A stretch of 64,000 nucleotides of DNA from Thauera terpenica 58Eu (lineage in GTDB: Bacteria; Pseudomonadota; Gammaproteobacteria; Burkholderiales; Rhodocyclaceae), in the NCBI RefSeq assembly GCF_000443165.1, contig NZ_ATJV01000125.1, forward strand, positions 1 to 64,000, read 5' to 3'. Under the pieces are notes generated by a model. It was not told the DNA's origin. It saw only the letters and a list, made by a program, of their open reading frames with translations, and searched no databases. Of this stretch, positions 1 through 9,662 are shown one piece after another; within the stretch, counting starts at the first letter, position 1, and every line of letters starts with the position of its first letter. The position numbers were made by a program, and so were the translations under genes.

Positions 1-933
1 ATCGCCGTCGGTCTGGACGAAGCGGGCGTGCCGCTGATCGAGGTCACCCACGGCGACGGCCTCGGTGGCAGCTCGGTGAACTACGGTTTCCCGGCCCACA
101 GCGACGAGGAATACCTCGGCGCGGTGATCCCGCTCATGAAGCAGGCCAAGGTCTCGGCGCTGCTGCTACCGGGCATCGGCACCGTCGAGCACCTGAAGAT
201 GGCGCATGAGCTGGGGGTATCGACGATTCGCGTCGCCACCCACTGCACCGAAGCCGACGTCTCCGAGCAACACATCGGCTATGCGCGCAAGCTGGGCATG
301 GACACCGTCGGCTTTCTGATGATGGCGCACATGAACAGCCCCGCAGGCCTGGTGCAGCAAGCCAGGCTGATGGAAAGCTATGGCGCCAACTGCATCTACG
401 TCACCGACTCGGCCGGCCACCTGCTGCCCGACTCGGTCAAGTCGCGCCTGTCCGCCGTGCGCGACGCCCTCAAGCCCGAGACCGAGCTCGGCTTCCACGG
501 TCACCACAACCTCGCCATGGGCGTGGCCAACAGCCTCGCCGCGCTCGAAGTGGGCGCCACCCGCATCGACGCTGCGGCCGCCGGTCTGGGCGCGGGCGCG
601 GGCAACACGCCGCTGGAAGTGTTCATCGCGGTGTGCGACCTGATGGGCATCGACACCGGGGTGGATGTGTTCAAGATCCAGGACGTGGCCGAAGACCTGG
701 TGGTGCCGATCATGGACTTCCCGATCCGCATCGACCGCGACGCACTGACCCTGGGCTATGCCGGCGTGTATGGCTCCTTCCTGCTGTTTGCCAAGCGCGC
801 CGAGAAGAAGTACGGCGTGCCGGCACGCGAGATTCTGGTCGAGATGGGCCGGCGCGGCATGGTCGGCGGTCAGGAAGACATGATCGAGGATACGGCGCTC
901 AATCTGGCCAAAGCCAAAGGGATTGCGGCATGA
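1..933 (+). CDS. dmpG: 4-hydroxy-2-oxovalerate aldolase, 5'-truncated
   Basis: This enzyme cleaves 4-hydroxy-2-oxovalerate to pyruvate and acetaldehyde, the last carbon-splitting step of the catechol meta-cleavage pathway. The frame is open from base 1, so the start lies outside the window. 310 residues are visible against about 345 in the family, so roughly 35 N-terminal residues are missing. The segment [18 protein letters not shown] near the visible start and the metal-binding HGHHN (bases 496-510) are typical of the DmpG/BphI/MhpE group. In known relatives it forms a channelling complex with acetaldehyde dehydrogenase DmpF, which is not in the window and would be expected just upstream. 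The tautomerase gene follows 80 bases later on the same strand. Confidence 0.95.
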
Positions 934-1312: not shown

Positions 1313-2233
1313 ATGAAGATCAGAAGGATTGTTGCGGCGCTGGGCCTGGGCCTGGTCATGTGTGCGGGTGCTCAGGCCAAGGACGGGGGCGATCAATACC
1401 CGAACGGCGCAGAAACCTGGCTAGGAGGGGCAGTCCCGCCCCCGGGAAACTACTTCATCAACTACTTCGGCTATTACGGTGGCGAGCTCCGCGATGGCAA
1501 CGGCAACAAGGCCGCCTCGGGGGAGGTCGATGCCTGGTTCAACGCCTTCCGCTTCGTGCAGACGACCGAGCACAAGATCATGGGTGGCAACTGGGGCTGG
1601 CATGTGATCGTCCCCTTGGTGCACCAGAAGGTTGATCTGTTTGGCTCGAAGTCGGCGGATGGCCTCGGCGACATCACGATCAACCCATTCATCGTGTCCT
1701 GGCATGCCAAGAACTGGCACTGGGCAGTCGGTCTTGACGTCAACCTGCCGACCGGGCGCTACAAGGAAGGCGATGCGCGTCAGAGCATCGGCGCCAACTA
1801 CTGGAGCTTCGAACCCTTGTTCGGGGTCAGCTACATGGGTGACACCGGCTGGGAGCTTTCGTCCAAGCTGATGTACAACATCAAGACCAAGAACAAGGAC
1901 TACGCCGGCCCTGCTGGAGTGGGCAGCTACGCTTCGGGCGACGAGTTCCACCTGGATTACCTGGTCGGCAAGCGCATCGGTCCGTGGGGCGTGGGCCTGT
2001 CGGGCTATTACCTGAAGCAGACCACGGACGACAAGATCAACGGCCAGACTGTTGCCGCACTCGGCGGTTTCTGGTCCGAAGGGCGCCGCGGACAGGTCTT
2101 TGCCATCGGGCCGACGGTGAGCTACACCACGCCGTCAGGGGTTCATCTTACCGCCCAGTGGAATCACGAGACCCAGGTCGAGAACCGCTTTGAAGGCGAC
2201 AAGTTCATTCTGAAACTGATCATGCCTCTGTAA
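1313..2233 (+). CDS. Outer-membrane meta-pathway (phenol degradation) protein
   Basis: This 306-residue exported protein resembles the Phenol_MetA_deg group (COG4313), often found in aromatic-degradation clusters and thought to form an outer-membrane channel for hydrophobic substrates. The N-terminus is a clear signal peptide (MKIRRIVAALGLGLVMCAG, cleavage near AQA-KD). The mature part alternates aromatic and polar residues as in a beta-barrel and ends in hydrophobic KLIMPL without a terminal aromatic residue. GAGGAGAGAAGG lies before the ATG. The substrate is not readable from sequence; a role in uptake of the aromatic substrate is inferred from the neighbours. Confidence 0.8.
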   Translation: MKIRRIVAALGLGLVMCAGAQAKDGGDQYPNGAETWLGGAVPPPGNYFINYFGYYGGELRDGNGNKAASGEVDAWFNAFRFVQTTEHKIMGGNWGWHVIVPLVHQKVDLFGSKSADGLGDITINPFIVSWHAKNWHWAVGLDVNLPTGRYKEGDARQSIGANYWSFEPLFGVSYMGDTGWELSSKLMYNIKTKNKDYAGPAGVGSYASGDEFHLDYLVGKRIGPWGVGLSGYYLKQTTDDKINGQTVAALGGFWSEGRRGQVFAIGPTVSYTTPSGVHLTAQWNHETQVENRFEGDKFILKLIMPL

Positions 2234-2540: not shown

Positions 2541-5500
2541 ATGTCATCGGGCAAGAACACGGTCAACGCATTCACACAGGAAGAGGGTGACATCCATCTG
2601 GGCGGTATCGATGCCATCGTCCGCCTCACGCTCGATCAGGTGCGTACCGATGCGCGTCGCGGGCTGACCACCGGGATGTTCGTGTCCGGCTATCGTGGCT
2701 CGCCAGTCGGCATGCTGGATGCGGCGCTCATCAAGCAGCAAAAGCTGTTGTTGCAGCATCACATCCATTTCGTCGATGGCGTGAACGAGGACCTTGCGGC
2801 CACCGCAGTGTGGGGCACACAGATGTTGCATACCGTCGGCAAGCAGAAGTTCGATGGTGTCACCGGCATGTGGTACGGCAAGGCGCCGGGTGTGGATCGC
2901 TCGGGGGACGCGCTCAAGCACGCCAACTACACTGGCATCGGCAAGAACGGTGGCGTGCTGGCGATTGCGGGTGATGACCCGAGTTGCAAGAGTTCGTCGC
3001 TGTGCTCGCAGTCCGAGCCGATGCTCTATCACGTCGGCATTCCCTCGCTGTATCCGGGCAACGTCCAGGAAATCCTCGACTTCGGCCTGCACGGCTACCA
3101 GATGTCGCGCCTTGCCGGCCTGTGGGCGGGGATGAAGATCGTCACCAATGTTGCTGATGGCAGTGGCACGGCCTGTGTCTCGCCTGAACGGCTCAATTTC
3201 ATTACCCCCGACCTCAGCTTTGATGGCGAGATCTTCACGCCCACCATGAACATGGGCATGAACGTACGTGCCGAGGCGCTGCAGATGGAGCAGTCGCTCT
3301 ACACCCGCCGCCTGGAAGTGGCCAAGCGCTACGCACGTGCCAATAATCTGAACAACGTCGTCTTTTCCAATCCGGACGCCTGGATCGGCATCATCACCGC
3401 GGGCAAGACCTACAACGATCTCAACCAGGCCTTCCTCGAGATGGGTCTGGACGACGCCGCCTTGCGCCACTACGGCATCCGTATCCTGAAGATGGGCATG
3501 CTGTTCCCGATGGAGCCGACCATCGTGCGCGAATTCGCACAAGGTCTGGAAGAGATCTTCGTCATCGAGGAAAAGCGTCCCTTCCTCGAGATGTTCGCCA
3601 AGCAGGTGCTGTACGGCATGAGCAATGCGCCGCGCATTGTCGGCAAGTTCGACGAAGAGGAAAGGGAACTCCTGCCGCACTACGGCGAGCTCGAGTCCGA
3701 CATCATCGTGCGCGCACTGCTCAAGCGTCTGTCGCGCAAGACACGTATCGAATCGGCCGAGAACTGGCTCAAGCGCCTGGACGAGATCCATTCGCGCAAC
3801 AAGCTGCCGACCGCGGTACGCACCGCCTGGTACTGCTCGGGCTGTCCGCACAATACGTCCACCACCGCGCTTGATGACAGCATCGTGTCAGCGGGTATTG
3901 GCTGCCACACGATGGCCATGTGGATGGGGCGCAATGTGGTGATGGGCACGCACATGGGTGCCGAGGGCACGCAGTGGATCGGCATGGCGCCCTTTACCGA
4001 AGCCCAGCACATCTTCCAGAACATGGGCGACGGTACCTATGCGCACTCGGGCAGCCTGGCGATCCGCTATGCTGCATCGACCGGAGTCAACATCACCTTC
4101 AAGCTGTTGCGCAACGCCCACACCTCGATGACGGGTGGTCAGGCCATCCAGGGCGAAGTGCCGGTGGTCAATATGGTCGCCGAGCTGCTCGCCAATGGCG
4201 TCAACAAGGTCATCGTCACCACCGACGACCCGTCGCGCTTCAATGCCGTGCAGCTGCCTGGTGGCACCGAAGTCTGGCACCGCGACCGTCTGGATGAGGC
4301 ACAGCGTGTGCTGGCCGCGATCGCGGGTACCACCGTGTTGCTGCACGATCAGGAATGCGCCGCTGAGCTGCGCCGCGCGCGCAGCCGTGGCAAGGCCGAT
4401 GAGCCGGCTGAGGTCATCGTCATCAACGAGCGTGTGTGCGAAGGCTGCGGCGATTGCGGCGAGAAGTCGAACTGCATGAGCGTCGAGCCGGTGCACACCG
4501 AGTTCGGACGCAAGACGCGCATCCATCAGTCGTCGTGCAACAAGGACTACAGCTGCGTGAAGGGCTTTTGCCCGTCTTTCCTCACCATCACACCGCACCC
4601 CGCGCCTGCCACCGATGGCGCGCCCCGGAAGAAAAAGGGCCGTATCCCGGCGCTCGAGCGCGCGCTGCCCGCGCCAGTCAAGAAGGTCGATGACAGCCTG
4701 GGCTTCGGCATTCACGTCATGGGTATTGGCGGTACCGGTTCGGTCACCGTGGTGGCAACGCTGGCCAAGGCCGCGCGTCTCGAAGGCAAGCACGTCATCG
4801 GTCTCGACCAGACCGGTCTGGCGCAAAAGGGCGGAGCGGTGATCTCCGACATCAAGATCACCCACGCGCCGTTCAAGGGCTCGAACAAGATTTCGGACGG
4901 CCGCGCCGATCTGTACCTTGGCTTCGACATCCTCAACGCGACCGATCCGAAAAACCTCGACAAGTGCAACCCGGAGCGCACCATCGCCGTGGTGTCGACC
5001 ACGGAGACGCCGACCGGGCAGATGGTTGCCAACCGCAAGGTGCTGTTCCCGGCGAGCGGTGGTCTCACTGCAGGCATCGACCGCGTAACGCGCAAGTCGG
5101 ACAACGTCTTTCTCGACGGCCAGGCGCTGGCCGAGGGTCTGTTCGGTGATGCGATGGCGACCAACAATTTCATGGTCGGCGTGGCATTCCAGGCCGGCAC
5201 GATTCCCCTTCAAGCCGAATCGATCGAAGCCGCCATCCGCGAGTCCGGGGTAGCGGTGGACATGAGTCTGGCGGCGTTCCGCTGGGGCCGCATGGCGGTG
5301 ATCGATCGTGGCTTCGTGGACGCCGAAATCGTACGGCAGCACGCGAGCGGCGCTGTGCTCACGCTGCACAGGGCGCCGCAACTGTCAGCGGTCGCACGCA
5401 ACATCGTCGATTCGATCGGGGCTGATGCCGAGGTCAGGCGCCTGGTCGAAGTGCGGGTGCCCGAGCTCATCGCCTTCCAGGACGAAGCCTATGCGCGGCG

Positions 5501-6083
5501 CTACGCAGACGCGATCAAGCGCGTCGTCGCCACCGAGCAGCGCGTCTTCCCAGGTAGCGCGTTGTCAGAGGCGGCTGCGCGCTACCTGTACAAGCTGATG
5601 GCCTTCAAGGATGAGTACGAGGTCGCTCGCCTGCACACCGACCCGGCCTTCATCGCCGAGCTCGATGCGCAGTTCCCGCACGGCTATTCGGTCAAGTACA
5701 ACCTCGCACCTCCGCTGCTGGCGAAGACCGATCCGGCCACCGGCCATCTGCAGAAGAAGCAGTACGGCGAGTGGATGTTCAAGGCGTTCAAGCGTATGGC
5801 TGGCCTCAAGCGCTTCCGTGGCTCTGCGCTCGACGTGTTTGGCAAGACCGCTGAGCGACGCATGGAGCGCCAGCTGATCGAGGACTACCTCCAGTTGCTC
5901 GAGCAGATCATCGCCCAGCTCAGTCCGGTCAATCATGGCGCTGCCGTCGCCCTGGCCAGCGTGCCTGACGAAATTCGCGGCTATGGTCACGTCAAGGAAA
6001 AGAGCCTGGCCGTCGCGCGCGAACTGCAGGCAACCCGTCTGCGGGCCTTCCTCGCGCCGCAGCAAGAGAGACAGGTGGCCTGA
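2541..6083 (+). CDS. Indolepyruvate:ferredoxin oxidoreductase-like fused 2-oxoacid oxidoreductase
   Basis: This is an 1180-residue fused thiamine-diphosphate/iron-sulfur enzyme of the indolepyruvate ferredoxin oxidoreductase type. Such enzymes oxidatively decarboxylate aryl- or other 2-oxo acids to acyl-CoA and reduce ferredoxin. The visible order is an N-terminal pyrimidine-binding domain, a TPP domain with GDGTYAHSG near residue 496, and an iron-sulfur insert with CEGCGDCGEKSNC and SCVKGFCPSF (about residues 632-675). A gamma-type domain starting GIGGTGS (about 729) and a C-terminal extension of about 240 residues follow. The ATG at 2541 has AAGGGGCA before it. Two bases separate it from a [2Fe-2S] ferredoxin, so co-expression is likely. 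Its substrate here is unknown; placement inside a meta-cleavage operon is unusual. Confidence 0.88.
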   Translation: MSSGKNTVNAFTQEEGDIHLGGIDAIVRLTLDQVRTDARRGLTTGMFVSGYRGSPVGMLDAALIKQQKLLLQHHIHFVDGVNEDLAATAVWGTQMLHTVGKQKFDGVTGMWYGKAPGVDRSGDALKHANYTGIGKNGGVLAIAGDDPSCKSSSLCSQSEPMLYHVGIPSLYPGNVQEILDFGLHGYQMSRLAGLWAGMKIVTNVADGSGTACVSPERLNFITPDLSFDGEIFTPTMNMGMNVRAEALQMEQSLYTRRLEVAKRYARANNLNNVVFSNPDAWIGIITAGKTYNDLNQAFLEMGLDDAALRHYGIRILKMGMLFPMEPTIVREFAQGLEEIFVIEEKRPFLEMFAKQVLYGMSNAPRIVGKFDEEERELLPHYGELESDIIVRALLKRLSRKTRIESAENWLKRLDEIHSRNKLPTAVRTAWYCSGCPHNTSTTALDDSIVSAGIGCHTMAMWMGRNVVMGTHMGAEGTQWIGMAPFTEAQHIFQNMGDGTYAHSGSLAIRYAASTGVNITFKLLRNAHTSMTGGQAIQGEVPVVNMVAELLANGVNKVIVTTDDPSRFNAVQLPGGTEVWHRDRLDEAQRVLAAIAGTTVLLHDQECAAELRRARSRGKADEPAEVIVINERVCEGCGDCGEKSNCMSVEPVHTEFGRKTRIHQSSCNKDYSCVKGFCPSFLTITPHPAPATDGAPRKKKGRIPALERALPAPVKKVDDSLGFGIHVMGIGGTGSVTVVATLAKAARLEGKHVIGLDQTGLAQKGGAVISDIKITHAPFKGSNKISDGRADLYLGFDILNATDPKNLDKCNPERTIAVVSTTETPTGQMVANRKVLFPASGGLTAGIDRVTRKSDNVFLDGQALAEGLFGDAMATNNFMVGVAFQAGTIPLQAESIEAAIRESGVAVDMSLAAFRWGRMAVIDRGFVDAEIVRQHASGAVLTLHRAPQLSAVARNIVDSIGADAEVRRLVEVRVPELIAFQDEAYARRYADAIKRVVATEQRVFPGSALSEAAARYLYKLMAFKDEYEVARLHTDPAFIAELDAQFPHGYSVKYNLAPPLLAKTDPATGHLQKKQYGEWMFKAFKRMAGLKRFRGSALDVFGKTAERRMERQLIEDYLQLLEQIIAQLSPVNHGAAVALASVPDEIRGYGHVKEKSLAVARELQATRLRAFLAPQQERQVA

Positions 6084-6084
6084 G

Positions 6085-6408
6085 ATGACGATGGTTGCGA
6101 CCAAGACTTTCTTTGCGGTAACGATTGCCGACACTGGCGAGGTGTTCCGTTGCCGCGCGGACGAGACGCTGCTGTCCGGCATGGAGCGCCTTGGCAAGCG
6201 CGGCATTCCGGTGGGCTGCCGGGGCGGTGGCTGCGGCGTGTGCAAGGTCCAGCTCGAGGCGGGTGAGTGCAGCAAGCGTGTGATGAGCCGCGACCACGTC
6301 AGCGCCGAGGAAGAGGCCAACGGCATCGTCCTCGCGTGTCGGGTGAAACCCTTGTCGGACATCCGCCTGCGGGTGCTGGGAAAGATGAAGATCAAGGTCT
6401 GCGCCTGA
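6085..6408 (+). CDS. dmpQ: XylT/DmpQ-type [2Fe-2S] ferredoxin
   Basis: This 107-residue plant-type ferredoxin closely resembles XylT/DmpQ. In known meta pathways that protein reduces and reactivates catechol 2,3-dioxygenase after oxidation of its active-site iron. The cluster ligands are visible in GCRGGGCGVCKV plus a later cysteine in LACRV. I chose the ATG two bases after the upstream stop codon; an in-frame ATG at 6091 is also possible. It is tightly coupled to the oxidoreductase gene, so it may accept electrons from that enzyme. No catechol dioxygenase gene is visible in the window. Confidence 0.85.
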   Translation: MTMVATKTFFAVTIADTGEVFRCRADETLLSGMERLGKRGIPVGCRGGGCGVCKVQLEAGECSKRVMSRDHVSAEEEANGIVLACRVKPLSDIRLRVLGKMKIKVCA

Positions 6409-6588
6409 GCCCGGGTGCAGATCAGCAATCCGTTTCAGCAAGCGCGCAAGCTCAACGGGCGCCTCTTCGAGGCCGTCGTCCGAGTGCGTGCTGCGTGAAC
6501 CTGCACAGCCAGTTCGTGGCCTTTTCGGTCCGCGAGCTGAGACTGCCAATCAACATTTAAGCGCTCCTCGGAGCTGGGGGAAGTAACC

Positions 6589-8049
6589 ATGCTTGCAGAC
6601 AAGATCCTCAATTTCATCGACGGCGAATTCGTTGCCACCGACAAGTGGTTCGATAACCGCACGCCGATCTCCAACGCCGTCATCGGCCAGGTCGCCGAGG
6701 CTGGCAAGGCCGAAGTGGATGCGGCTGTTGGCGCCGCCCGGGCCGCACTGAAGGGACCCTGGGGGACGATGACGCTGGCACGCCGCGTCGAGCTGCTTGA
6801 GGCCCTGGTGGCCGAGATCAACAACCGCTTCGACGAATTCCTCGAGGCCGAATGTGCCGACACCGGCAAGCCGAAGAGCCTCGCCTCGCACATCGACATT
6901 CCGCGCGGCGCAGCAAACTTCAAGATCTTTGCCGACATGGTGAAGAACGTGCCCAGCGAGTTCTTCGAGATGGCTACGCCTGACGGCAGCTCCTGCATCA
7001 ATTACGGCTATCGCGGCCCGGTGGGCGTGATCGGCGTGATCTGCCCGTGGAATCTGCCGCTGCTGCTGATGACGTGGAAGGTCGGTCCGGCGCTGGCTTG
7101 TGGCAACACGGTGGTGGTCAAGCCCTCGGAAGAGACGCCGCGAACCGCTGCGCTGCTCGGTGAAGTCATGAACAAGGTCGGCATCCCTAAGGGGGTGTAC
7201 AACGTGGTGCATGGCTTCGGCGCGAACTCGGCAGGTGAGTTCCTGACCTCACACCCGGGTGTTGATGCGATCACCTTCACCGGTGAAACCCGCACCGGCG
7301 AGATCATCATGAAGGCGGCGGCCAACGGCTCGCGCCCGGTCTCGCTCGAGATGGGCGGCAAGAACGCCGCGATCGTGTTCGCCGACTGCGACTTCGATGC
7401 TGCGATCGAGGGCACGCTGCGTTCGGCTTTCGCCAACTGCGGCCAGGTCTGTCTGGGTACCGAACGGGTGTATGTCGAGCGTCCGATTTTCGACAAGTTC
7501 GTGGCGGCGATGAAGGCCGGTGCCGAGGCGATGAAGGTGGGTGTGCCCGACGACCCCGCCACCAGCATGGGACCGCTGATCAGCAAGGAGCACCAGAACA
7601 AGGTGCTGTCCTACTACCGCCTCGCGGTGGAAGAGGGCGCGACGGTCGTGAGCGGCGGTGGTGTGCCTGAGATGGCGGGCGAGCTGAGCGAGGGCTGCTG
7701 GGTGCAGCCGACGATCTGGACGGGGCTGCCCGAGAGCGCACGCGTCATCAAGGAGGAGATCTTCGGCCCCTGCTGCCATATCGCCCCCTTCGACACGGTC
7801 GAGGAAGTGCTGGAGAAAGCCAACGACAACCAGTACGGCCTGGCCACCGCGATCTGGACCACCAACGTGTCGCGTGCCCACCGTGTGGCGCAAAAGATGG
7901 AAGTGGGCATTGCCTGGGTCAATAGCTGGTTCCTGCGTGACCTGCGCACGCCTTTTGGTGGCTCCAAGCAGTCGGGCATCGGCCGTGAGGGCGGTGTGCA
8001 CTCGCTTGAGTTCTATACCGAACTCAAAAACATCTGCATCAAGCTGTGA
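6589..8049 (+). CDS. dmpC: 2-hydroxymuconic semialdehyde dehydrogenase
   Basis: This NAD-dependent aldehyde dehydrogenase oxidises 2-hydroxymuconate semialdehyde, the ring-cleavage product of catechol, to 2-hydroxymuconate. At 486 residues it has the length of DmpC/XylG. The general-base glutamate lies in SLEMGGKNAAIVF and the catalytic cysteine in NCGQVCLGTERVYVERP, a hallmark of this subfamily. CPWNLPLLL and the FGGSKQSGIGREGG end motif are also typical. A 180-base gap separates it from the ferredoxin gene, and a GGGGGAAGTAACC ribosome site precedes the ATG. dmpE follows after 11 bases. Confidence 0.95.
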   Translation: MLADKILNFIDGEFVATDKWFDNRTPISNAVIGQVAEAGKAEVDAAVGAARAALKGPWGTMTLARRVELLEALVAEINNRFDEFLEAECADTGKPKSLASHIDIPRGAANFKIFADMVKNVPSEFFEMATPDGSSCINYGYRGPVGVIGVICPWNLPLLLMTWKVGPALACGNTVVVKPSEETPRTAALLGEVMNKVGIPKGVYNVVHGFGANSAGEFLTSHPGVDAITFTGETRTGEIIMKAAANGSRPVSLEMGGKNAAIVFADCDFDAAIEGTLRSAFANCGQVCLGTERVYVERPIFDKFVAAMKAGAEAMKVGVPDDPATSMGPLISKEHQNKVLSYYRLAVEEGATVVSGGGVPEMAGELSEGCWVQPTIWTGLPESARVIKEEIFGPCCHIAPFDTVEEVLEKANDNQYGLATAIWTTNVSRAHRVAQKMEVGIAWVNSWFLRDLRTPFGGSKQSGIGREGGVHSLEFYTELKNICIKL

Positions 8050-8060
8050 GGGGCGCAAAC

Positions 8061-8843
8061 ATGGACCAGAAAATCATCGAAGCCCTGGGCGACAGGCTGT
8101 TCGACGCGCTGAGCAGCCGTACCCCGATTGCACCGCTGACGGCGACGCATCCGGAGATGACGATCGAGGACGCTTATCACGTCCAGCAGCGCATGATCGC
8201 GCGTCGCCTGGAGCAGGGCGACCGCGTCATCGGCAAGAAAATCGGTGTCACCAGCACGGCGGTGATGAACATGCTGGGTGTGCATCAGCCCGACTTCGGC
8301 TATCTGCTCGACAGCATGGTGTACAACGAAGGCGAGTCGGTCGAGATGGACGCGCTGATTCAGCCCAAGGCTGAAGGTGAGATCGCCTTCCTGCTGAAGA
8401 AGGATCTGCAGGGGCCCGGTGTCACCGCAGCCGATGTGCTCGCCGCCACCGAAGGCGTGATGGCCTGCTTCGAGATCGTCGATTCGCGCATTCAGGACTG
8501 GAAGATCCGCATCCAGGACACCGTGGCCGACAACGCCTCGTGTGGCGTATTCGTGCTCGGCGACCAACTGGTCGATATCGCCAACCTGGACCTGGCGCTG
8601 GCCGGCATGGTGCTGGAGAAGAACGGCGAGATCGTCGTCACCGGCGCCGGTGCCGCGACCATGGCCCATCCGGTCAATGCGATGGTGTGGCTCGCCAACA
8701 CGCTCGGTGCGCTGGGCATCGCGCTCAAGGCGGGCGACATCGTGCTCTCGGGCGCGATGGGCGCGATGGTGCCGGTGGTCAAGGGCGACAACCTGCGCAT
8801 GACCATCGGCGGCATCGGCGGCTGCTCGGTGCGCTTCATCTGA
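8061..8843 (+). CDS. dmpE: 2-oxopent-4-enoate hydratase
   Basis: This enzyme hydrates 2-hydroxypenta-2,4-dienoate to 4-hydroxy-2-oxovalerate. The 260-residue product aligns by eye with DmpE over its length: VIGKKIGVTS, LGVHQPDFGYL, PKAEGEIAFLL, SRIQDWKIRIQDTVADNAS. The ATG at 8061 is preferred over an in-frame GTG at 8046 because it follows GAGGGG and starts MDQKIIEALGD as in the family. It is paralogous to dmpH just downstream; in characterised pathways the hydratase and decarboxylase form a complex, consistent with their adjacency. Confidence 0.95.
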   Translation: MDQKIIEALGDRLFDALSSRTPIAPLTATHPEMTIEDAYHVQQRMIARRLEQGDRVIGKKIGVTSTAVMNMLGVHQPDFGYLLDSMVYNEGESVEMDALIQPKAEGEIAFLLKKDLQGPGVTAADVLAATEGVMACFEIVDSRIQDWKIRIQDTVADNASCGVFVLGDQLVDIANLDLALAGMVLEKNGEIVVTGAGAATMAHPVNAMVWLANTLGALGIALKAGDIVLSGAMGAMVPVVKGDNLRMTIGGIGGCSVRFI

Positions 8844-8873: not shown

Positions 8874-9662
8874 ATGAAGCTCAATCAGAAGACGATCGAA
8901 CAACTCGCCGAACTCCTCGAGAACGCCGAACTGCAAGCGCATGAAGTGGTGAAGATCACCGACGCCCATCCCGACATGGACTGGGATGATGCCTACGCGA
9001 TCCAGGCTGAGATCCTGCGTCGCAAGCTGGCGCGTGGCAATCGTGTGGTCGGTCTGAAGGCCGGCCTGACCTCACGCGGCAAGATGAAGCAGATGGGCGT
9101 CGACACGCCGGTATTCGGCTGGCTGGTCGACTACTTCAGCGTGCCCGACGGCGGCGAAATCAAGACCAGTGAGCTGATCCACCCCAAGGTCGAGCCCGAG
9201 ATCGTGTTCGTCACCAAGCGTGCGCTCAAGGGCCCGGGCTGCCACATCGCTGCCGTGCTGGCGGCGACCGACTTCGTCATGCCCGGCATTGAAATCATCG
9301 ACTCGCGCTACAAGGATTTCAAGTTCGACCTCAAGAGCGTGATCGCCGACAACTGCTCGTCGACGCGCTTCGTACTCGGCGGTCAGCTGACGCCGGTGAC
9401 GGGGCTGGACCTGCGCACCCTGGGCGTGGTGCTGGAGAAGAATGGTGAGGCGGTGGCCATCGGTGCCGGTGCCGCCGTGCTCGGCCACCCGGCGGCGGCG
9501 ATCGCAGCGCTGGCGAACCACCTCGGCGCACGTGGCGAGGAGATTCCGGCCGGCACCATGATCCTGTCCGGCGGTGTGACCGAGGCCGTCGCGGTGAGCG
9601 CGGGCGACAACGTGACGCTGCGTATCCAGTCACTTGGCAGCGTGAGCACCCGCTTCATCTGA
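8874..9662 (+). CDS. dmpH: 4-oxalocrotonate decarboxylase
   Basis: This enzyme decarboxylates 4-oxalocrotonate to 2-hydroxypentadienoate, which the preceding hydratase uses. It has 262 residues, as in DmpH/XylI, with GLKAGLTSRGKMKQMGVD, PKVEPEIVFVT and DSRYKDFKFDLKSVIADN. It shares the fumarylacetoacetate hydrolase-related fold with dmpE and clearly arose by duplication. The metal-binding glutamates are visible in EPEIVF. AGGAAACACC precedes the ATG. It is the last gene of the operon; rpiA converges on it 44 bases later and no strong terminator is visible between them. Confidence 0.95.
   Translation: MKLNQKTIEQLAELLENAELQAHEVVKITDAHPDMDWDDAYAIQAEILRRKLARGNRVVGLKAGLTSRGKMKQMGVDTPVFGWLVDYFSVPDGGEIKTSELIHPKVEPEIVFVTKRALKGPGCHIAAVLAATDFVMPGIEIIDSRYKDFKFDLKSVIADNCSSTRFVLGGQLTPVTGLDLRTLGVVLEKNGEAVAIGAGAAVLGHPAAAIAALANHLGARGEEIPAGTMILSGGVTEAVAVSAGDNVTLRIQSLGSVSTRFI

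Follow-up and report, generated by a model that had tools for sequence, protein, structure and literature searches.

The 64,000-nucleotide stretch of Thauera terpenica 58Eu analysed here (the window) forms the beginning of contig NZ_ATJV01000125.1 (C125; base 1 of the contig is base 1 of the window) in a genome of 4.15 Mb. It carries a gene for a fused 2-oxoacid ferredoxin oxidoreductase of the indolepyruvate type (hereafter IOR) which, along with a small ferredoxin gene, lies inside a lower meta-cleavage operon. The gene order on the forward strand is dmpG (cut), dmpI, a MetA-type porin gene, IOR, ferredoxin, dmpC, dmpE and dmpH, after which rpiA follows on the other strand (Table 1). It can be seen that dmpC, dmpE, dmpG, dmpH and a 4-oxalocrotonate tautomerase gene, the set by which we recognised such an operon, all score above their NCBIfam cut-offs, the tautomerase reaching 53.5 bits with the DmpI-named model NF041920, below its cut-off of 70. 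A preliminary description of this DNA had placed an 1180-residue indolepyruvate-type oxidoreductase and a XylT/DmpQ-like ferredoxin in a meta-cleavage operon, between the outer-membrane protein and dmpC. This is borne out by the family scores and by the dmp neighbours, which also include dmpG, dmpI and dmpH, unmentioned there; the spacing that it gave as two bases is in fact a single base between the IOR stop codon and the ferredoxin open reading frame (ORF).

Table 1. Features of the operon at the start of the window
Feature	Position	Strand	Basis
dmpG, 4-hydroxy-2-oxovalerate aldolase, 5' end cut by contig start	1..933	+	TIGR03217 517.6 bits, cut-off 286
dmpI-type 4-oxalocrotonate tautomerase, 63 aa	1014..1205	+	PRK01964 86.8 bits, cut-off 86
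MetA-type outer-membrane protein of phenol meta-pathways	1313..2233	+	Pfam Phenol_MetA_deg 222.9 bits
Fused 2-oxoacid (indolepyruvate-type) ferredoxin oxidoreductase (IOR), 1180 aa	2541..6083	+	PRK13030 1604 bits; POR, DUF6537; clade and context
XylT/DmpQ-like [2Fe-2S] ferredoxin, 107 aa	6085..6408	+	Fer2 61.4 bits
Gap at place of catechol 2,3-dioxygenase in Thauera relatives	6409..6588		blastn against 7 relatives, no remnant detected
dmpC, 2-hydroxymuconic semialdehyde dehydrogenase	6589..8049	+	TIGR03216 904 bits, cut-off 693
dmpE, 2-oxopent-4-enoate hydratase	8061..8843	+	TIGR03220 466.6 bits, cut-off 408.8
dmpH, 2-oxo-3-hexenedioate (4-oxalocrotonate) decarboxylase	8874..9662	+	TIGR03218 479.7 bits, cut-off 350.6

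The window IOR matches PRK13030 over its full length (residues 8-1176; cut-off 816 bits) and scores above the NCBIfam cut-offs of both PRK13030 and PRK13029. The POR domain was found at 69.5 bits (cut-off 27.4) and DUF6537 at 229 bits, with TPP_enzyme_C at 20.0 bits, slightly below its cut-off of 21.9. No PDB relative was found by sequence at 1e-5. When a predicted model was searched with Foldseek, the top 18 matches were all pyruvate:ferredoxin oxidoreductases (E 9e-16 to 9e-14), global superposition being weak (TM 0.31-0.36). The model has a mean pLDDT of 73, falling below 50 at residues 423-488, and was unusable for the substrate pocket as the thiamine pyrophosphate region has pLDDT below 50. 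Cysteines 432, 435, 633, 636, 639, 645, 666, 672 and 677 are conserved across the clade and the paralogues described below. Four positions only (429, 529, 552 and 734) were specific to the clade, in a comparison that counted the clade member L094 with the outsiders, and these were not used as evidence. The likely chemistry of IOR is CoA-dependent oxidation of a 2-oxo acid.

The IOR clade and its genomic context

A close-relative scan of 84,980 species, with one genome per species, gave 78 IOR loci from the best 80 of 100 matches. At 73 of these the protein is 70-90% identical to that of the window, and the remaining five are at 45-47%. Among 300 genomes of the order this type of IOR was found in two, the window genome and G065, the next-best match being 49% identical. 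We conclude that the window IOR belongs to a discrete clade with its own genomic context. In a tree of 92 rows the clade (64 rows, including the window and L094) lies on one side of a branch with support of 100, although the program gave a warning that long branches come together where clade and outsiders join. The tree and the residue comparison were made without ten short or interrupted IOR loci (L051, L069, L070, L071, L072, L077, L078, L086, L087 and L093).

According to the record titles, clade IORs are encoded in Thauera, Zoogloea, Variovorax, Paraburkholderia, Rhodoferax, Ottowia and other taxa. Those closest to the window are from Thauera and Azoarcus, with 90% identity to L021. Thauera IORs stand at two separate places in the tree and T. 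butanivorans has both types, which suggests transfer. One of the two T. butanivorans genes follows a ben block and the other is in a short BphD-dmpE-IOR set (L053 and L063). No plasmid record had an IOR match of at least 60% identity. Distant IORs (46-48%) are encoded on the Rhodococcus plasmids pDK3 (L149) and pRho-VOC14-C342 (L150), both with a gene for an FAD-linked oxidase, a possible partner, nearby; in one of them a mandelate/benzoylformate set lies beside the IOR gene, which hints at other 2-oxo acid substrates.

Meta-pathway genes, that is those for catechol 2,3-dioxygenase (C23O), a LigB dioxygenase, dmpC, dmpE/MhpD or dmpH, are in view at 59 of the 73 clade loci. As a control we used 21 loci of 9-20 kb that carry paralogues of about 45% identity, two from the window genome and 19 drawn from the top-scoring paralogues in the order sample. 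None of them has meta-pathway genes, and the presence of the clade gene in meta operons is therefore not a matter of chance. Seven of the 14 clade loci that lack such genes either start at a contig edge (L034, L052, L071, L077 and L078) or end at one (L070 and L087). Where at least 3 kb could be seen on both flanks (46 loci), a DmpE/MhpD hydratase is encoded at 40, a ring-cleavage dioxygenase at 37, dmpH and dmpC at 39 each and dmpG at 6. The nearest scored gene upstream on the same strand, within 900 bp, is dmpH at 26 of the 73 loci, dmpI at 13, BphD at two, and dmpE, MetA and C23O at one each; 24 loci have none within that distance and five meet a contig edge. A DmpE/MhpD-type hydratase of at least 250 bits is encoded in 49 of 50 clade genomes (the exception is G021) as against 26 of the 300 order genomes, the two with a clade IOR included. 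This is an association and not proof, because the clade genomes were chosen through IOR and scored for all candidates, whereas in the order sample at most eight candidates per genome were scored.

The closest named family is indolepyruvate ferredoxin oxidoreductase, and it could be argued that IOR is an indolepyruvate or arylpyruvate oxidoreductase that has come to lie in aromatic operons by chance and clears side products. We regard this as improbable, as the paralogues of about 45% identity, of which this genome has a pair, are the ones without a link to meta operons, and the MaoC, PhaC and phasin genes that adjoin some clade IORs (see below) are in keeping with a C4 acyl-CoA rather than an aryl-CoA. 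The preliminary description had allowed for an aromatic 2-oxo acid oxidised as a side substrate; oxidation of a 2-oxo acid comes nearer to what we found, but the context favours the pathway's own C5 acid over an aromatic one.

In the textbook ending of meta cleavage, an aldolase (DmpG) and an acetaldehyde dehydrogenase (DmpF) yield pyruvate and acetyl-CoA via acetaldehyde. Either gene lies within the fetched flank at nine of the 73 clade loci; in L021, L022, L023, L024 and L082 this is a block 6-9 kb upstream, and in L042 it is on the other strand. The 51 dmpE-dmpH pairs in 50 IOR loci (L031 is counted twice, its dmpE match being split) have a median gap of 26 bp, with dmpF-dmpG between them in one case (L054). 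For comparison we viewed 12 of 15 plasmid records carrying the ferredoxin of the window, none of which had an IOR match in the stretch viewed. There, dmpG was present in 11 of the 12 and dmpF in 10; pCT14 (L162) has neither in view, and the L158 stretch starts inside dmpG. Two loci can be set side by side: in L163 (Achromobacter) the order is dmpC-hydrolase-dmpE-dmpH-dmpF-dmpG followed by dmpI, and in L085, from a Rhizobacter metagenome-assembled genome (MAG) with no dmpG above the cut-off, it is dmpC-hydrolase-dmpE-dmpH-dmpI-IOR followed by an ABM-type ORF, MaoC, phasin and PhaC.

The ferredoxin gene and catechol 2,3-dioxygenase

The product of the gene behind IOR is a small plant-type [2Fe-2S] ferredoxin with the motif C-x4-C-x2-C-x31-C. 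No second small protein of XylT type was found in this genome; four further matches lie within ORFs of 374-442 aa. The known role of XylT is the reactivation of C23O, and the preliminary description proposed a repair circuit in which IOR draws electrons from pyruvate or some other 2-oxo acid and reduces the ferredoxin, which in turn reactivates the dioxygenase. Both are redox proteins, and their genes adjoin in the window and at 7 of 29 ferredoxin-bearing loci. However, the ferredoxin tracks C23O, which directly follows it at 26 of the 29 loci (spacing 31-139 bp) and in 10 of the 12 plasmid stretches. Together with the lack of an IOR match in these stretches, this indicates that the ferredoxin belongs with the dioxygenase. 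All seven adjacent pairs fall within one 11-row subclade that holds the window, and in four of them the ferredoxin starts 5 bases, counting the stop codon, behind the point where the IOR match ends; the remaining ferredoxin genes are usually 2-6 kb from IOR. A further 12 IOR loci have C23O visible and no XylT-like ferredoxin in view (L025, L037, L038, L059, L060, L066, L068, L072, L075, L084, L088 and L094).

Since IOR and the ferredoxin each occur alone beside the same pathway genes, we reject the repair circuit as the main explanation. Reactivation, moreover, takes few electrons, for which a dedicated enzyme of 1180 residues would seem excessive. The circuit is unlikely, and we would give it very little chance, although IOR may pass electrons to the ferredoxin in the Thauera-type arrangement. 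Both genes do have their place in the meta-cleavage operon, each independently of the other.

The order IOR-ferredoxin-C23O-dmpC-dmpE-dmpH is found in six Thauera/Azoarcus loci (L021, L022, L023, L024, L053 and L082) and in Dechloromonas L057. A ben block lies upstream of IOR on the other strand in these seven (benA in 7/7; benABCD by NCBIfam in L021). The window, unlike them, has neither C23O nor the ben block, and the gene directly behind its ferredoxin is dmpC. When the window was compared with the seven by blastn, the alignments stopped at 6397-6426 and restarted at 6578-6589, and no remnant of C23O was detected between ferredoxin and dmpC. It appears from these alignments that C23O has been lost at this point, and the window ferredoxin is most likely a C23O reactivation ferredoxin that was left beside IOR when the dioxygenase went.

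The C23O gene of this genome lies at the end of contig C51, with genes for a XylR/DmpR-type regulator, phenol hydroxylase, a GntR regulator and an HbpS-like protein, and a cut dmpF. Only 12 bases separate the reductase ORF from that of C23O there, with no dmpQ in them, although C23O may start up to 90 bases later. The genome has dmpFG. The join of C51 to C125 is unproven because two dmpF ends (C51 and C70) and two dmpG ends (C125 and C61) all break at a near-identical repeat. The join is favoured by L024, in which GntR-HbpS-dmpF-dmpG-dmpI is contiguous. The dmpF-dmpG copies at the contig ends, split in the assembly, are 97.7% and 98.7% identical over 300 bases (L015, L016, L156 and window 1-300). 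One copy is probably that of the phenol operon and the other that of a different set. On C70 (L016, C70:200000-213770) the cut dmpF is accompanied by genes for a PRK07121 FAD-binding protein, a flavin-reductase-like protein, a short-chain dehydrogenase/reductase (SDR) and a hydratase 57% identical to dmpE, a set that we take to be for steroid degradation.

A proposed ending of the meta pathway

We propose that IOR is an enzyme of lower meta cleavage that converts a C5 2-oxo acid, most likely 4-hydroxy-2-oxovalerate, to a C4-CoA and so bypasses DmpG and DmpF. Judged by gene content, clade membership, context and the control loci, this is the reading towards which we lean, with some reserve. The substrate, which is the C5 acid that remains once the ring has been cleaved and the product decarboxylated or hydrolysed, would be supplied by DmpE/MhpD. 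IOR would then convert 4-hydroxy-2-oxovalerate, CoA and oxidised ferredoxin to 3-hydroxybutyryl-CoA, CO2 and reduced ferredoxin, and with the aldolase and the acetaldehyde dehydrogenase bypassed neither pyruvate nor acetaldehyde would be formed. Flux from the C4-CoA could run to two acetyl-CoA or, through a PhaJ/MaoC hydratase and the polyhydroxybutyrate (PHB) synthase encoded alongside in some relatives, to PHB.

The gene is also found behind upstream routes other than that of dmp. It follows genes of the hca/mhp type in L049, with the order HcaB-(one unassigned ORF)-LigB dioxygenase-MhpD-hydrolase-IOR-MaoC, in L065, with MhpA-LigB dioxygenase-MhpD-transporter-IOR, and in L061, the order of which is given below. 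Sets of dmpC-RidA-MhpD-dmpH adjoin IOR in L076, L089 and L090 (the RidA family by Pfam in L076), and from their likeness to amn/nba genes we take these to be 2-aminomuconate routes. The catechol/dmp, hca/mhp and 2-aminomuconate routes share only 2-oxopent-4-enoate/4-hydroxy-2-oxovalerate and the later steps.

On the product side, a MaoC gene starts 23-640 bp downstream of IOR at 24 of the 73 clade loci, its nearest PDB match being an (R)-specific enoyl-CoA hydratase (5cpg, 1.2e-32). PHB synthase (PhaC; PDB 5hz2, 2e-151) is encoded at 10 of the 73 loci and a phasin at 6. A crotonase-like enoyl-CoA hydratase is encoded at 13 of the 73, seven at 67% identity or more and the other six weak (26-33%); MaoC and a strong crotonase-like gene occur together at five (L035, L039, L044, L048 and L090). 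With one hydratase specific for S and one for R, (S)-3-hydroxybutyryl-CoA, should IOR yield it, could be turned into the R form that PHB requires. In loci with MaoC, dmpF or dmpG was in view at 1 of 24 (L042, on the other strand) as compared with 8 of 49 without. In Zoogloea (L026, L027, L029, L030 and L079) a block on the opposite strand downstream of IOR encodes a CoA-transferase and, where the contig reaches, an SDR, a thiolase and an enoyl-CoA hydratase (Pfam in L026), possibly for C4-CoA metabolism. In Bradyrhizobiaceae AGun1 (L043; CP078014.1, genome G021) the order is transporter-IOR-MaoC, which shows that IOR and MaoC can occur as a pair by themselves; their substrate there may be a 2-oxo acid that is taken up.

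At those 24 loci, a MaoC of the (R)-enoyl-CoA hydratase type behind IOR would also fit an IOR that acts one step earlier, on 2-oxopent-4-enoate (2-hydroxypenta-2,4-dienoate) before hydration, with but-3-enoyl-CoA/crotonyl-CoA as product and MaoC making 3-hydroxybutyryl-CoA from it. L061, with LigB dioxygenase-hydrolase-IOR-MaoC-phasin and no hydratase in a locus of 19.9 kb, favours this substrate over hydroxyoxovalerate. A dmpE/MhpD gene would then be unneeded, and yet it is retained at 40 of the 46 well-flanked loci and in 49 of 50 genomes; we consider action before hydration unlikely, though it deserves to be kept in mind.

Several further observations weigh against hydroxyoxovalerate as substrate, or against replacement of DmpG/DmpF. 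MaoC is not in view at 49 of the 73 loci, some of them cut by contig ends, and MaoC and PhaC are absent both from the window and from the seven Thauera-type relatives with IOR and ferredoxin side by side. G021 has no hydratase (best E 6e-5) and no aldolase above the cut-off. L043, L047, L050, L056, L067, L083 and L091 have no meta-pathway genes although flanks of 1.3-10 kb are in view on both sides. In L054 and L069 dmpFG and IOR share one gene run, and L041 has a dmpF start 188 bp behind IOR, where the contig ends. Because of the relatedness of the loci the counts are not independent events, and Fisher p-values, which take no account of it, carry no weight here. We know of no activity for any clade member. 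Finally, in a survey of the genomes behind 50 of the 73 loci (two of them in one genome), 43 of 49 have dmpG above the cut-off somewhere; the six that do not are G009 (which has an edge fragment), G021, G038, G042, G043 and G046, several of them MAGs. Variovorax sp. Sphag1AA and Ottowia thiooxydans, isolates with IOR, MaoC and PhaC, are both among those that have dmpG. We therefore rejected strict genome-wide replacement. As the window operon too has dmpG by synteny, replacement would be local, and IOR in the window genome would form a second branch beside dmpFG.

The IOR-bearing meta operon is real, recurrent and under-described. We think it somewhat probable that it represents a recurrent, undescribed ending of the meta pathway, in which a 4-hydroxy-2-oxovalerate (or 2-oxopent-4-enoate):ferredoxin oxidoreductase has been recruited behind three or more upstream routes, stands in for DmpG/DmpF and an intact C4 unit passes to 3-hydroxybutyryl-CoA and PHB. 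If so, the pathway would have a second ending that avoids acetaldehyde and passes electrons to ferredoxin under aerobic conditions. The PHB monomer would come straight from aromatics, a simple aromatics-to-bioplastic route, and a substrate would be assigned to a clade whose family takes its name from indolepyruvate alone. Among bacteria that degrade phenol- and benzoate-like pollutants, those with this enzyme would probably turn the last C5 fragment into a C4 building block for energy or bioplastic.

Comparison with known systems

Within the accessible portions of the open-licence literature, where subscription journals are little covered, no paper was found in which an IOR acts on 4-hydroxy-2-oxovalerate or in which the meta pathway is linked directly to PHB, and the available text of PMC6710988 and PMC12117332 does not describe the proposed route. 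The nearest precedent is EdcC, an IOR-family protein of estrogen degradation in Novosphingobium tardaugens, with KC8_05315 in Sphingomonas sp. KC8 (PMC7793797). That paper reports that deletion of edcC impairs growth on estradiol, that the mutant accumulates a metabolite, possibly pyridinestrone acid, which arises from the meta-cleavage product in a side reaction, and that addition of edcC gives a compound with a mass fitting the decarboxylated product; EdcC is proposed there to remove the carboxyl group of a 2-oxo acid and activate it with CoA. The view in the preliminary description that no such system had been described thus stands for a route of the window type, but not for the family, a member of which already acts on a meta-cleavage product.

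By analogy with EdcC, which is of the same broad family and acts on the ring-cleavage product (PMC7793797), the window IOR might work higher up and oxidatively decarboxylate either what ring cleavage yields or 4-oxalocrotonate (giving glutaconyl-CoA), so that dmpH and dmpE are bypassed. This is hard to reconcile with dmpH at 39 and a hydratase at 40 of the 46 well-flanked loci, usually right before IOR, and with clade IORs behind hca/mhp-type operons, whose cleavage product is different; we hold it to be quite improbable. The two systems are alike in that an IOR-family protein is encoded together with an extradiol ring-cleavage enzyme. They differ in that EdcC, on in vivo evidence only, acts on the product of steroid A-ring cleavage, whereas context places the window clade on a C5 acid, the comparison being one of family and context and not of sequence. 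The window is not an edc cluster, having dmp neighbours, with phenol hydroxylase genes on C51; since clade IORs are placed after dmpE/dmpH, they most likely act lower than EdcC.

Compared with the PRK13030/PRK13029 family, the clade has the full-length match and the nine conserved cysteines but is set apart as a discrete group, the next matches of the order sample being at most 49% identical, and has its own context. The window ferredoxin resembles XylT/DmpQ in its Fer2 domain, its size and its position before C23O in relatives, and differs in standing beside IOR, with the genome's C23O on C51. Lastly, IOR would take the same step as DmpG-DmpF (MhpE-MhpF, BphI-BphJ), and its gene shares their place in the operon, which in the plasmid controls is between or after dmpE and dmpH. 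These enzymes are of other protein families, and IOR would yield a C4-CoA, CO2 and reduced ferredoxin.

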